From Rickettsia typhi (GTDB taxonomy: Bacteria; Pseudomonadota; Alphaproteobacteria; Rickettsiales; Rickettsiaceae), in assembly GCA_945878545.1 (NCBI GenBank), contig CAMCTQ010000024.1, forward strand, positions 1 through 12,519: a stretch of 12,519 bases of DNA. Direction: 5' to 3'. The first letter of the stretch is position 1, and the number at the start of each line of letters is the position of its first letter. The translations under genes and the position numbers were made by a program. The notes under the pieces are model-generated. The model was not told the DNA's origin, made no database searches, and saw nothing but the letters and a program-made list of their open reading frames with translations. Positions 5,598 through 9,994 of the stretch are shown here, piece by piece.

Positions 5598-6197
5598 TTA
5601 TTCAAGAAAGTTCCCACTTATGTCTATATTACTTCCTAGACCTACAATTGGTGTTTCTTGCTGGTCAGATTTTTCTATCATTACAGGTAATATTGGAGAT
5701 ATTGATTGGTAAATCATTGGGAAGTGTATACTTGAATGATAATAATCAACAACAATTTTACCCAAAACTTTTGGCATAAAAAATTCTAATATCTTAGGCA
5801 ACAAAATGCTCGTATCAATCACACTAACAAATTTGTCTCCTTTATTATATTCTGCTAAAATTTCCATTTTAGTGAAAGTTGCAATCAGCATAGTTTTTAC
5901 GAACCTTATCTGCTCTACTCTTTCTTGCTTAATTTTATTGCTTGATACGAAAATATTGTATATTTCATCATCGCTAATTTGTGTTGGTATCAATATTTTT
6001 GTAGATTTTGTTAATCTCGAATATCTACTATCAAATTGATGGCGTCGACAAATAACTTGTTCACCGCTTTCTTCGTCCATTTCTAAGGCTTTAATGGGTA
6101 TTAATATATCTCGCTCAGGAGTTTGGTTAAGAACTTTTGACAACATTGATAATAATAAATCTGTATCAAAACCTAGATATTGCTGTGGTTTTTTCAT
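5598..6197 (-). CDS. Orphan protein at the end of the lysC-kdpBC operon, 199 aa
   Basis: I do not recognise a family. The protein has no signal peptide and no clear membrane segment, although residues around 130-170 are rich in hydrophobics (SILLPKILEFFMPKVLGKIV). The N-terminus is mixed and charged, with a basic stretch CRRHQFDSRYSRLTK near 50-64. The start is well supported, with AAGGA five bases before the ATG. It begins 20 bases after the kdpC stop on the same strand, so it is almost certainly the last gene of the operon. Its position suggests a link to the Kdp subunits, for example a partner or regulator, but that is guilt by association only. It could also be an unrelated Rickettsiales-specific gene. 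Base composition resembles its neighbours. Confidence 0.75.
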   Translation of the reverse strand: MKKPQQYLGFDTDLLLSMLSKVLNQTPERDILIPIKALEMDEESGEQVICRRHQFDSRYSRLTKSTKILIPTQISDDEIYNIFVSSNKIKQERVEQIRFVKTMLIATFTKMEILAEYNKGDKFVSVIDTSILLPKILEFFMPKVLGKIVVDYYHSSIHFPMIYQSISPILPVMIEKSDQQETPIVGLGSNIDISGNFLE

Positions 6198-6217
6198 AGT
6201 TTCCTTACATTGTTATG

Positions 6218-6751
6218 TTAATAAGGTTTGGGATAACCGTCTAATGCAGCATTAAGGATAGAAGTATTCACTATATCTAGTTCAAAAAATATTTTTTGCT
6301 TATAAAGCGTGTTTTGGTCAATTAATGTATAAATTTCATTAATATCAATTCCCCTAGCTTTTGATACCGTTAGAGCCTGTGATAGTGCTTCTCTTCTTGT
6401 AATAAACGGATCGTGCTTGCTTGAGGATGTTGTCATCATCGTTACATCATAATGACTAACTTTTTCATCGTAATTGCGAATTAATGTTTCTTTGAAATCA
6501 GCATTATAGAGAGCTACATCACACTCGGGATCAAACTCTATATTTGGTCTAGCCTTAAAATACTTTGCATCTCTAAGGTGTTGAGCTATTAGATAAGATC
6601 CTCTAATGTTATTGTTTCTATCCACAATTAGACTCCCTTTTATTTTTTCTGGCCAAAAATTATGGCCAATTAAATAAATCGCTAAGGTGTAAAGGGTTAT
6701 AGATATAAGACAAACACTATATAACACTGAACTTAACATTAAGTTTTTCAT
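6218..6751 (-). CDS. kdpC: Potassium-transporting ATPase subunit KdpC, divergent
   Basis: KdpC is the single-span accessory subunit of the KdpFABC potassium pump and contacts KdpA in the known complex. Here 177 aa (E. coli 190) begin with a membrane anchor at about 7-29. Recognisable blocks follow: WPEKIKGSLIV (compare WFPWQANGSLI), IRGSYLIAQ, AKYFKARP, TTSSSKHDPFITRREAL (compare TASASGLDNNITPQAA), VSKARGIDINEIYTLI, and a final VNTSILNAALDG (compare VNIVELNLALD). The ATG overlaps the kdpB stop as TAATG, so translation is coupled. The usual segment YNPQASGGSNL after the RPS motif is replaced by FDPECDVALYN, so a highly conserved stretch is lost. With no kdpA seen, whether this subunit works in K+ uptake is uncertain. 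Confidence 0.9.
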   Translation of the reverse strand: MKNLMLSSVLYSVCLISITLYTLAIYLIGHNFWPEKIKGSLIVDRNNNIRGSYLIAQHLRDAKYFKARPNIEFDPECDVALYNADFKETLIRNYDEKVSHYDVTMMTTSSSKHDPFITRREALSQALTVSKARGIDINEIYTLIDQNTLYKQKIFFELDIVNTSILNAALDGYPKPY

Positions 6752-8769
6752 TATATTAATCCAACCCTATAAATAATAAATTCAATCAATTTAATAAATA
6801 AGAATGGAGAAATTACTCCTCCAAAACCGCACAATAAAATTATACGCCATAAGTATGTTTTGTTTTTCTCTATTTTTAAATCATAGAAAATTAATGGTGT
6901 AAGGCACGGTATTATCAATGCATTAAAAATGACAGAAGCAAGTAAGGCACTCTCTGGTGACTGAAATTGCATAATATTTAATTTTGCTAAGGCAGGAAAT
7001 GCTGTGCTAAATAACGCTGGTACAATAACAAAATATTTTGCTAAATCAGAAGTTATAGAATAAACGGTTAACGCCCCTCTTCTTACAGTAATTTTTTTGC
7101 ACTCATTCTTTAATTCAAGTAGTCCAGATAAATCATAACTTTTTGCTATAATATTACCTGATAAAATAGAATGAACTTGGCTTTTGTCTTCAAAAGTATA
7201 ACCTATATCAGCCTGGGCCAGTGCTAGTGCATCATTGACTCCATCGCCACACATAGCAACAACAAAACCCTTTTCTTGAAAAGATCTAATTAATTCAAGC
7301 TTTTTTTCTGGTGTGCTATCAGCATAAAAGGTTTTTATACCAAGTTTTTTTGCAATATAAGATGCCGTAATGCTATTATCTCCAGTAACCATTATTGTGG
7401 GGATTCCTGCCTCTTGAATATTAGAGATTTGTTGCACGATCCCCTTTCTAAAGCTGTCACGCAAATTTATGACACCAAAAATCCTTTTATTAACGGTAAG
7501 AATCAAAGGAGTTCCATGTGTTTTTGCTATCTCATTTGCTATATCCTGAATCTCTTCAGGAAGATTTTGTATAGTTTTTCCAAGGTATTTTGCTATAGCA
7601 CGCAGACTTCCCTTTCTAATTTCGATATTATTATAATTACATCCGCTAATAGGGTTTGATGCTGAAAATGGCAAATATTCGTATGAGTCAGTTTTTATTT
7701 CTTTATTTAAAAGTCTGGCGTTATTTATGGCAAATGATGTTATACTTTGCCCTTCTTGGGTGCTATCCTCTATAGAAGACAAATATAAGTATCTAAAATA
7801 ATCTTCTTTGCTGCCTTCTGAAGTTGTTCTGAACTGAATCATTTCTCTTTGGCCAAAAGTTAAGGTTCCTGTTTTATCAAGTAGCACAATGTTAATATCA
7901 ACTGCATTGTCAAAAGCTATTTGATCTTGAACGATAATATTGTGAGCAGCAAGTTTTGTCTTGCCATTAAAAATAATAGCTCTTTGTAGTCCAGATATTG
8001 TAGTCGGTAATAAAATCACTATTAGATCAATAAGATAAATTATTGGCATTTCTAAACCAACATAACCAGCAAGTACCCATATAACAAAAATCACACTAAT
8101 AAATAGAACTGATAAACCTAATATCAGCCTCTGCAAAGCCATCTCAGAAGGCATTGCTTGCCTATTTATATTTCGAAGTAATTTTGTTACTCTAGTAAAA
8201 AATGATTTATGACTAGAGAAACTAACCTTCATTACAATCCAGTCACTTCCTTCTACTATGCTTCCTGTAACTAATATATTATCCTTGTTTGGGCTTTTTA
8301 GTTTTAGCTCTAAGGCTCCAGTAGTATCTGTCTCATTAATATAACTGACACCTTTTACTACTTCTCCGTCAAAAGGTATTTCATCGCCACCTTGTAGTAA
8401 AATTAAATTACCAGATTTTATAGAATCTTTTCTAACCTTTTTATAATTAGTAATATCCACAAGAGAACTTAACTTCTTAACTAATCTACCACCACTACCA
8501 ATTCTTTCTAAAATAAGATCTGAATTTTGACCAATAGATATAGATTCTGCTAATGAAGAGAAAAACACAGTCATCCACAACCAGAAAGTCATTTGACCGT
8601 AAAGGAATATATTATCAGTTTGGTAAAATATCTGTTGAAGGAAGATAATCAAAGCAATGCAACCAAGAACAAAAAGAAGTAAAAACACAGGGTTTTTTGC
8701 TTGATGGGCTAATTTCATTCGGCTAAAAGCATTTCTAATTACAGATTGCTTTAACTTTTTGCTTTGCAT
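6751..8769 (-). CDS. kdpB: Potassium-transporting ATPase ATP-binding subunit KdpB, catalytic motif altered
   Basis: KdpB is the P-type ATPase subunit of the Kdp pump in the inner membrane. At 672 aa (E. coli 682) it is complete. Seen in order: first membrane helices at about 27-75, the actuator domain, PTTISGL in M4 from 255, the phosphorylation motif DKTGTLT with Asp298, the nucleotide-domain SGCNYNNIEIRKGS with the KGS lysine at 386, VTGDNSITA from 461, CGDGVNDALALAQADIG from 507, and M5 SDLAKYF with Asp575 and Lys578, equivalent to E. coli Asp583 and Lys586. The C-terminal membrane part matches KdpB specifically (SPESALLASVIFNALII). The oddity is in the actuator domain: the TGES loop reads TGAL at 150-153, so the dephosphorylation glutamate and the regulatory serine (E. 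coli Glu161 and Ser162) are both missing. GDGTNDAP also reads GDGVNDAL. The start lies 7 bases after the lysC stop with no clear ribosome site, suggesting coupling. Confidence 0.94.
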   Translation of the reverse strand: MQSKKLKQSVIRNAFSRMKLAHQAKNPVFLLLFVLGCIALIIFLQQIFYQTDNIFLYGQMTFWLWMTVFFSSLAESISIGQNSDLILERIGSGGRLVKKLSSLVDITNYKKVRKDSIKSGNLILLQGGDEIPFDGEVVKGVSYINETDTTGALELKLKSPNKDNILVTGSIVEGSDWIVMKVSFSSHKSFFTRVTKLLRNINRQAMPSEMALQRLILGLSVLFISVIFVIWVLAGYVGLEMPIIYLIDLIVILLPTTISGLQRAIIFNGKTKLAAHNIIVQDQIAFDNAVDINIVLLDKTGTLTFGQREMIQFRTTSEGSKEDYFRYLYLSSIEDSTQEGQSITSFAINNARLLNKEIKTDSYEYLPFSASNPISGCNYNNIEIRKGSLRAIAKYLGKTIQNLPEEIQDIANEIAKTHGTPLILTVNKRIFGVINLRDSFRKGIVQQISNIQEAGIPTIMVTGDNSITASYIAKKLGIKTFYADSTPEKKLELIRSFQEKGFVVAMCGDGVNDALALAQADIGYTFEDKSQVHSILSGNIIAKSYDLSGLLELKNECKKITVRRGALTVYSITSDLAKYFVIVPALFSTAFPALAKLNIMQFQSPESALLASVIFNALIIPCLTPLIFYDLKIEKNKTYLWRIILLCGFGGVISPFLFIKLIEFIIYRVGLI

Positions 8770-8776
8770 CTAATCA

Positions 8777-9994
8777 TTATCCAACATTAATTTTAAAATG
8801 CTTGTGTAATAATTTAATAGCCTTTTCCGTGTCCTGATCTTCTAATATTGCCGTGAACTTAGTTTCAGTCACATCAATTTCTTTTACTTTTATCTGGTGA
8901 TTGTTTAATAGATCAATAATACCAAAACAAATACCATTATCATTCTTTATACCATACCCAACGGCTGTTACTGTAGAAATGTTTGATTTAATGTCGTAAA
9001 CTAATATTTTAGAGAGGTTTTTTAAACTATTTAACACTGACTCAAATTTATTTTTATCAGCTAAACTTGCAATTAAAACAATTTTGTTGGTGTCGCGAAG
9101 CTCTACTTTATCTACAATTAAGCTTTCTTCAGTAAATTTCTTGATTACTTCTAGAAAACTATTTGACGCACAAGTGATTTCAATTTGTATAATATTTTTA
9201 TTTGATGTTATCGCAGTAATTAATCTATTTTCCATTTTTAGTCTCTTATCAAAATTTTTTGAACTTATTAACGTTCCTGGATCGTCATCAAAAGATGACA
9301 AAACTCTCATATCAAATTTATATCTACTCGCGGCAAGAGCCGCTCTTGGATGCAGAACCTTGGCACCGTAACTACTTAAGGCAAGCATCTGATCTGTAGA
9401 AATATAATCAATTTTAGAGGCGTCATGAACAATCCTCGGATCGGCGGTAAACACTCCTAGAACATCAGTATAAATATCCGCTCTATCTGCACCAATCGCA
9501 GCTGCAATAAGAGCGGCGGTTGTGTCAGATCCTCCTTTACCAAGAGTTGTAATTTGCTGGCTGGTCGTAACGCCCTGAAAACCAGTAATAACAGGTATAA
9601 CATCATTTTCTAATAAATTATGGATAAATTCTGAATTAATTGATTCTACCTTAGCATTGGCAAAAACATCATCTGTCAAAATAGGTATTTGCCATCCTTG
9701 TATTGATCTTGCTTTTAGCCCAAGTCTTTGTAATTCAAGAGCAACTAAGCCAGAAGTCAATATCTCTCCACTACCAACAACAGCATCGTATTCCTGCATG
9801 TGGTTATATGAATTTAACTTCGACACCTCATTACATCTGCTAATTAAAGAATTAGTAACGCCGGCCATTGCAGAAACAACTATCACAAGCTTGTGACCAG
9901 CTTCATACTCTTTTAAGATAATTCTTGCTACTTTCTGGATCCTCACCACATCTGCAACTGAGGTGCCACCAAATTTTTGGACAATTAAAGCCAT
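8777..9994 (-). CDS. lysC: Aspartate kinase (monofunctional)
   Basis: Cytosolic enzyme that phosphorylates aspartate to aspartyl-4-phosphate, entering the pathway to diaminopimelate, lysine, threonine and methionine. In genome-reduced intracellular alphaproteobacteria it chiefly serves peptidoglycan via diaminopimelate. The 405-aa length fits the LysC-alpha type. Motifs are KFGGTSV at residues 7-13, VVSAMAGVTNSL at 39-50, VGSGEILTSGL from 73, GKGGSDTTAALIA at 152-164, YTDVLGVFTADPR at 175-187 and SYGAKVLHPRA at 208-218, followed by two regulatory ACT domains over about 265-400 where lysine or threonine feedback normally acts. No homoserine dehydrogenase fusion. It is the first gene of an operon with kdpB and kdpC, an unusual combination with no evident metabolic link. 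Confidence 0.97.
   Translation of the reverse strand: MALIVQKFGGTSVADVVRIQKVARIILKEYEAGHKLVIVVSAMAGVTNSLISRCNEVSKLNSYNHMQEYDAVVGSGEILTSGLVALELQRLGLKARSIQGWQIPILTDDVFANAKVESINSEFIHNLLENDVIPVITGFQGVTTSQQITTLGKGGSDTTAALIAAAIGADRADIYTDVLGVFTADPRIVHDASKIDYISTDQMLALSSYGAKVLHPRAALAASRYKFDMRVLSSFDDDPGTLISSKNFDKRLKMENRLITAITSNKNIIQIEITCASNSFLEVIKKFTEESLIVDKVELRDTNKIVLIASLADKNKFESVLNSLKNLSKILVYDIKSNISTVTAVGYGIKNDNGICFGIIDLLNNHQIKVKEIDVTETKFTAILEDQDTEKAIKLLHKHFKINVG

Follow-up and report, generated by a model that had tools for sequence, protein, structure and literature searches.

The glutamate of the TGES motif counts as a hallmark residue of the cation P-type ATPases, and in KdpB this residue (Glu161) hydrolyses the phosphoenzyme. 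The closest described system is KdpFABC of Escherichia coli (structures 6hra, 7bgy, 5mrw, and others), which is encoded in a single operon. As described in the parts of the published reports drawn on here, the E161Q substitution abolishes the ATPase activity and traps the E2-P state (PMC7535926), phosphorylation of Ser162 acts as a brake at high K+ (PMC7535926, PMC9651954), Asp583 and Lys586 are required for coupled transport (PMC12247778), and Arg400 of KdpA bridges to Asp300 and Asp302 of KdpB (PMC6255902). The subject of this work is the corresponding system of Rickettsiaceae, approached through a window (the whole stretch of DNA analysed, 12,519 nucleotides) of Rickettsia typhi contig CAMCTQ010000024.1, in which the gene directly upstream of kdpB is lysC (aspartate kinase) and not kdpA; in contrast to the single operon of E. 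coli, the genes of this Rickettsiaceae branch lie mostly at two loci. Judged from its sequences, the system descends from Kdp, but its defining motif and its regulation set it apart from canonical KdpFABC. With confidence about evenly balanced, we consider it a divergent, selected KdpABC that would lack the serine brake, be tuned to a K+-rich cytosol, and turn over independently of Glu161.

The KdpB encoded in the window falls within the KdpB fold, and the solved chains nearest to it are those of E. coli KdpB. It retains DKTGT and the P-domain motifs, and its K+ path residues at the positions of Phe232, Pro264, Asp583, and Lys586 are F, P, D, and K. The best family match is TIGR01497 (494.1 bits over residues 3–666), under the curated cut-off of 527.9; this cut-off is passed by only one of 85 Rickettsiaceae genomes, and by 133 of the 134 matching genomes among 398 Pseudomonadota. 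For comparison, KdpB was aligned over 71 outside rows (the top hits of a single search, with E. coli and 24 other Rickettsiales added), three rows of a group with an intact kdpABC operon, and 53 others, the latter two making up the 56 rows of the branch, window included. Of the 53 non-intact rows, 15 (the window included) were seen in their gene context, and the other 38 are protein clusters placed by sequence; likewise, clusters P0072 and P0237 were put with the two intact-operon genomes (G020 and G021) by sequence. Rows shorter than 600 residues, G004 (a run of N in its kdpB), and G026 and G029 (kdpB cut by contig ends in both) were dropped, and near-duplicates were removed before tree building.

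The TGES motif is present in all 71 outside rows and in all of 90 further Pseudomonadota loci (the 30 best-scoring and 60 chosen from the lower-scoring part of 136 matches), but in none of the 56 branch rows. Glu161 is found in 71/71 outside rows, 3/3 of the intact-operon group, and 15/53 of the others (18/56 of the branch); the corresponding counts for Ser162 are 71/71, 0/3, and 1/53, the single exception being P0031. The motif in the window reads TGAL, followed by Glu154 at the position of residue 163. In contrast, Gly160, Asp307, Lys308, Phe232, and Pro264 are invariant in all rows inside and outside the branch, and Asp583 and Lys586 are kept in 55/56 and 54/56 branch rows (52/53 and 51/53 of the separated group), P0049 lacking both. 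Misalignment of the motif was rejected, as Gly160 is aligned in 56/56 rows and two alignments agree. The AlphaFold model is unsure in this region (residues 148–152, pLDDT below 50) and cannot place a residue at the phosphate.

On a tree of the 56 rows, inferred from the alignment minus the motif columns, position 161 has changed in 18 parsimony steps (75th percentile of all sites, with every letter change counted; eight changes when scored only as Glu or not Glu), position 162 in nine, and position 163 in 17, versus zero steps at each residue of DKTGT, at Lys499, and at Asp522, and at most one at any phosphorylation or P-domain motif site examined. The branch is thus a natural mutagenesis series, with 18 steps at the TGES glutamate and none at the phosphorylation site.

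KdpA is altered as well. The alignment contained 29 outside rows, three of the intact-operon group (two genomes and cluster P0237), and 55 others, 58 rows forming the branch; gene context was seen for 16 of the 55 and the remainder are protein clusters, placed by sequence or default, rows shorter than 530 residues and near-duplicates having been dropped (two of four outside rows among them). Relative to E. coli, the branch shows E370K, G374E, loss of Arg400, N112G/S, and mostly Asp at position 344 (36/55). Glu370 is found in 28/29 outside rows versus 0/58 branch rows (52 Lys, 5 Arg, 1 Asn), and position 374 is Gly in 29/29 outside rows and acidic in 58/58 branch rows, which suggests that the acid four residues after position 370 may be a compensating change. 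Position 394 is basic in all 58 branch rows, and Arg400 is lost in 57/58, although Asp300 on the partner side is kept in 54/56 KdpB rows. Asn112 of the filter is present in 29/29 outside and 3/3 intact-operon rows, and in 0/55 of the others (47 Gly, 8 Ser). The remaining positions compared are preserved in the separated group, with Gly232 and Gly345 in 55/55 rows, and Gly468 and Gln116 in 54/55; the row without Gly468 (G003) has a broken first frame and an out-of-frame tail. In E. coli, the ATPase of the E370K enzyme is reported to have a Km of 75 mM, up from 0.023 mM (PMC12247778). A substitution that all but inactivates E. coli Kdp experimentally is hence the normal state of the branch.

To place the genes, profile matches were surveyed in 85 Rickettsiaceae genomes; the window organism is represented by the window alone. 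KdpA, KdpB, and KdpC matched in 20, 19, and 18 genomes, respectively, the latter two confined to the 20 KdpA-bearing genomes, so that KdpA accompanies KdpB in 19/19 and KdpC in 18/18; in G030, lysC is followed by a short initial piece of kdpB that is cut off close to a contig end, and with it counted the KdpB total is 20. The three genes stand together in two of the 20 genomes (G020 and G021), where a TlpA-like gene (our label; its product has Pfam matches to Redoxin and AhpC-TSA) is oriented divergently to kdpA. In the other 18, kdpBC lies away from kdpA, directly after lysC in 15; in G019, G085, and G086, kdpBC does not follow lysC, which is found elsewhere in these genomes. Since lysC is directly upstream of kdpB in 15 of the 18 genomes with separated genes, the order seen in the window is not due to chance, and the two genes overlap or are at most 20 bases apart in 11 of the 12 loci measured. 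Four Rickettsiales relatives identified by a KdpB contig scan, including the complete Megaira genome CP084576, also have lysC-kdpB-kdpC, and all four have kdpA elsewhere. Four Kdp-less relatives (G025, G027, G032, and G033) have lysC without kdpBC.

The initial annotation proposed that either kdpA had moved, or KdpBC had lost or changed its role. Separation of kdpA from kdpBC is borne out, but the moving part is kdpBC: the TlpA-like gene adjoins kdpA in 19/20 genomes, intact and separated alike (the exception is G086), so kdpBC left and kdpA kept its old place, and relocation of kdpA was rejected on this ground. As to the role, KdpB has indeed changed in losing TGES, but its partner has not simply been lost, as KdpA occurs in every genome with KdpB. 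The annotation had set against its proposal the case of an intact kdpA elsewhere with conserved subunit interfaces; this case is realised only in part, since most relatives have a full-length, open kdpA, but one whose residues of the path and of the contact with KdpB are altered. In the KdpB tree, the intact-operon rows fall outside the other 53 with support 99, although this is a quick tree in which long branches may meet at the intact-operon rows. A single break of the operon, by departure of kdpBC from kdpABC, is therefore the simplest account. Since G019, G085, and G086 fall in the first branch of the separated group, the place after lysC was either reached later or lost in these genomes. 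Two loci differ further in layout: in L080:2893-6384 (G035), 918 bases lie between kdpB and kdpC, the pair being loosened there, and in L072:3061-6642 (G028), a 1193-residue gene-transfer-agent-like tail protein (GTA_TIM, Phage-tail_3) is encoded directly downstream of kdpC.

The Kdp systems of the other Rickettsiales families (26 loci) belong to the same bacterial order and have the same subunits, but differ from the Rickettsiaceae branch in that kdpB is beside kdpA in 24/26 (one having none within 1500 bases and one being cut by a contig end), TGES is present in 24/24, and Asn112 in 26/26; the best matches of full-length KdpA score 677–818 bits, versus 419–494 bits in Rickettsiaceae. One genome of this outside set (G188, C6 and C13) has two kdpA matches, of 818 and 569 bits. 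The intact-operon Rickettsiaceae resemble the rest of the branch in the absence of Ser162 and in Lys370, Asp374, and Arg394 of KdpA, but differ from it in the whole kdpABC, Glu161, and Asn112. Because the changes at Asn112 and Glu161 occur only outside the intact-operon group, it is likely, on this sequence comparison, that the serine brake and the tunnel charges changed first, while the operon was still whole. In the open-access literature, judged partly by title, no paper on Kdp in Rickettsiales was found.

The regulatory and alternative K+ uptake genes searched for are sparse. In the 85 Rickettsiaceae genomes, no KdpD-domain match exceeded the cut-off, in contrast to the E. coli system, and weak hits occur in nine genomes, all without Kdp. 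A kdpF was not seen either, in a limited search of 10 genomes, where no short hydrophobic open reading frame (ORF) recurred consistently in the 260 bases before kdpA. TrkH matched in 0/85 genomes and Kup in 3/85 (G030, G037, and G038), each of which also has KdpA; among the KdpA, TrkH, and Kup families, Kdp is thus alone in 17 of the 20 kdp-bearing genomes. Replacement of Kdp by another K+ importer was rejected on these counts, which cover TrkH and Kup and no other channel families. In 65 of the 85 genomes, KdpA, TrkH, and Kup are all without a match.

The genes that are present appear to be maintained. Pairwise dN/dS (ratio of nonsynonymous to synonymous substitution rates) is 0.035–0.136 for kdpA (four pairs), 0.095–0.150 for kdpB (six), and 0.088–0.196 for kdpC (five), with 0.078–0.143 for the comparison genes lysC and ubiG; the pairs G020–G021 (dS saturated) and, for kdpC, G002–G024 (dS zero) were set aside. 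These values indicate that kdpA, kdpB, and kdpC are under purifying selection, and they occur as a set. The annotation's argument that kdpB and kdpC are not old pseudogenes holds, dN/dS being 0.035–0.196 across the three genes where dS could be estimated and the catalytic sites being conserved. In G024 (L074:6464-9441), kdpA is interrupted by a 394-residue transposase ORF with rve and HTH_Tnp_1, and in G003 (L102:4840-6439) it is in two overlapping ORFs, for which a frameshift or an assembly error would fit; kdpB and kdpC are open in both. G002 has an open kdpA and a kdpB 99.3% identical to the one in G024, so the break in G024 is recent. In G028, the stretch of kdpB matched by the profile includes one TAA, which by its coordinates precedes the ORF start.

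Eukaryotic cytosol contains K+ at about 100 mM. We propose that, after kdpBC had left kdpABC and in most lineages become the tail of the lysC gene, the KdpABC complex would still assemble and still autophosphorylate on the aspartate of DKTGT, but would no longer scavenge K+ under the control of an inhibitory serine phosphorylation. Most likely it would transport K+ constitutively and with low affinity, as an adjustment to the K+-rich cytosol of the host; low affinity is suggested because the 75 mM Km of the E. coli E370K enzyme is near the cytosolic K+ level. Turnover of its phosphoenzyme would not require Glu161, and would either be slow or use another residue. Several observations weigh against this proposal. 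The E161Q enzyme of E. coli is dead, so that a turning-over pump is not assured. Of the 53 rows that do not belong to the intact-operon group, 15 still have Glu161, as do two (G019 and G034) of the 15 rows with observed context, a third (G031) having Asp. According to the part of PMC12247778 drawn on, E370K leaves E. coli Kdp almost without activity or transport, so that the change could mean loss rather than tuning. Moreover, no kdpB lies in the 1500 bases on either side of the canonical kdpA (771 bits) of G233 (L140), from another Rickettsiales family, and separation alone thus need not go with changes in the proteins; finally, kdpA is broken in two of the 20 genomes (G024 and G003), though open and full length in most.

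The best surviving alternative, possible though rather doubtful in our estimate, is a phosphorylation-gated K+ valve, in which KdpB would lack a complete hydrolytic cycle and the aspartyl phosphate would set the conformation of the KdpA–KdpB path, so that K+ flow inside the K+-rich host would follow the ATP/ADP state rather than pumping. Such a valve would account for a relaxation confined to the hydrolysis half of the active site (18 steps at Glu161 versus zero or one at the phosphorylation and P-domain motif sites), with Thr159 changed in 4/53 rows, the dead laboratory substitution Gln at 161 in three, and no acid at either 161 or 163 in 14 of the 38 rows without Glu161, and also for the replacement of the filter Asn112 by Gly or Ser in all 55 KdpA rows outside the intact-operon group. 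We know of no precedent for a phosphorylation-gated valve in Kdp, and the residues of coupled transport are kept (Asp583 in 55/56 and Lys586 in 54/56 rows). In addition, the E. coli E161Q enzyme is stuck, as far as PMC7535926 was drawn on, in an ADP-insensitive E2-P state, from which reversibility would not be expected. Slow pumping, as in the preferred reading of a low-affinity transporter, and mere gating of K+ flow are indistinguishable from sequence.

Somewhat less probable, and in our view unlikely, is an ordinary pump with a shifted catalytic residue, in which a neighbouring acid, Glu or Asp at 163 (Glu154 of the window KdpB), would replace Glu161 and leave the Post-Albers cycle unchanged. 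Of the 38 rows without Glu161, 24 have either Asp at 161 or an acidic residue at 163, and the window itself has Glu at 163; however, the other 14 rows have neither, position 163 has itself changed in 17 steps, and with Gly160 in 56/56 rows the motif is not misaligned. We rate lower still, as improbable, a decay of Kdp made superfluous by the K+-rich cytosol, with the motif eroding first. It would be in keeping with the 65 of 85 Rickettsiaceae genomes without a KdpA match, the kdpA genes broken by a transposase in G024 and into two ORFs in G003, and the absence of both Asp583 and Lys586 from P0049, but is opposed by the low dN/dS (0.035–0.196), by catalytic sites with zero steps across deep divergence, and by the shared new states of KdpA (Lys or Arg at 370 in 57/58 rows, an acid at 374 in 58/58). 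That KdpBC acts independently of KdpA, in a different role as an ATPase linked to lysC, is very improbable. In its favour, kdpA is not beside kdpBC, lysC and kdpB are at most 20 bases apart or overlapping in 11/12 loci, and G024 and G003 combine a broken kdpA with open kdpB and kdpC; against it, KdpA is found in 19/19 KdpB genomes and 18/18 KdpC genomes, and kdpBC lies away from lysC in G019, G085, and G086.

Features of the window locus are given below. The minus-strand order of the initial annotation was confirmed by ORFs and family matches, with 7 bases between lysC and kdpB, one base shared by kdpB and kdpC (TAATG), and 20 bases between kdpC and the orphan. Its statement that no kdpA is in the window is likewise upheld: tblastn with two Rickettsiaceae KdpA queries, with KdpB as the positive control, gave chance matches only (best E 0.77 over 18 residues).

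Features of the lysC-kdpB-kdpC locus in the window
Feature	Position	Strand	Basis and remarks
lysC, aspartate kinase, 405 aa	8777..9994	-	ORF; PF00696 and TIGR00657; directly upstream of the kdpBC unit
kdpB, divergent KdpB-type P-type ATPase, 672 aa	6751..8769	-	ORF; TIGR01497 best
TGAL codons, degenerate TGES motif (KdpB residues 150-153)	8311..8322	-	Ala152 at the position of E. coli Glu161; Leu153 at that of Ser162
DKTGT codons, intact phosphorylation site (KdpB residues 298-302)	7864..7878	-	0 parsimony steps in 56 rows
kdpC, 177 aa	6218..6751	-	ORF; PF02669; start shares one base with the kdpB stop
Orphan, lineage-specific ORF, 199 aa, without assigned family	5598..6197	-	No Pfam or NCBIfam match; outside the conserved unit

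KdpC of the window passes the cut-off of PF02669 (83.6 versus 24.1 bits), and scores under all NCBIfam KdpC cut-offs listed. The orphan ORF is matched by two protein clusters, one of which is the orphan itself, and it is not found 3' of kdpC in the relatives' loci L001–L003 (L004 stops short of that position); it is not part of the conserved lysC-kdpB-kdpC unit. At the separate kdpA locus, an M23 peptidase gene comes next after kdpA in many relatives, and one protein of 668 residues (P0182) carries both KdpA (PF03814) and an M23 peptidase domain, by fusion or frameshift.

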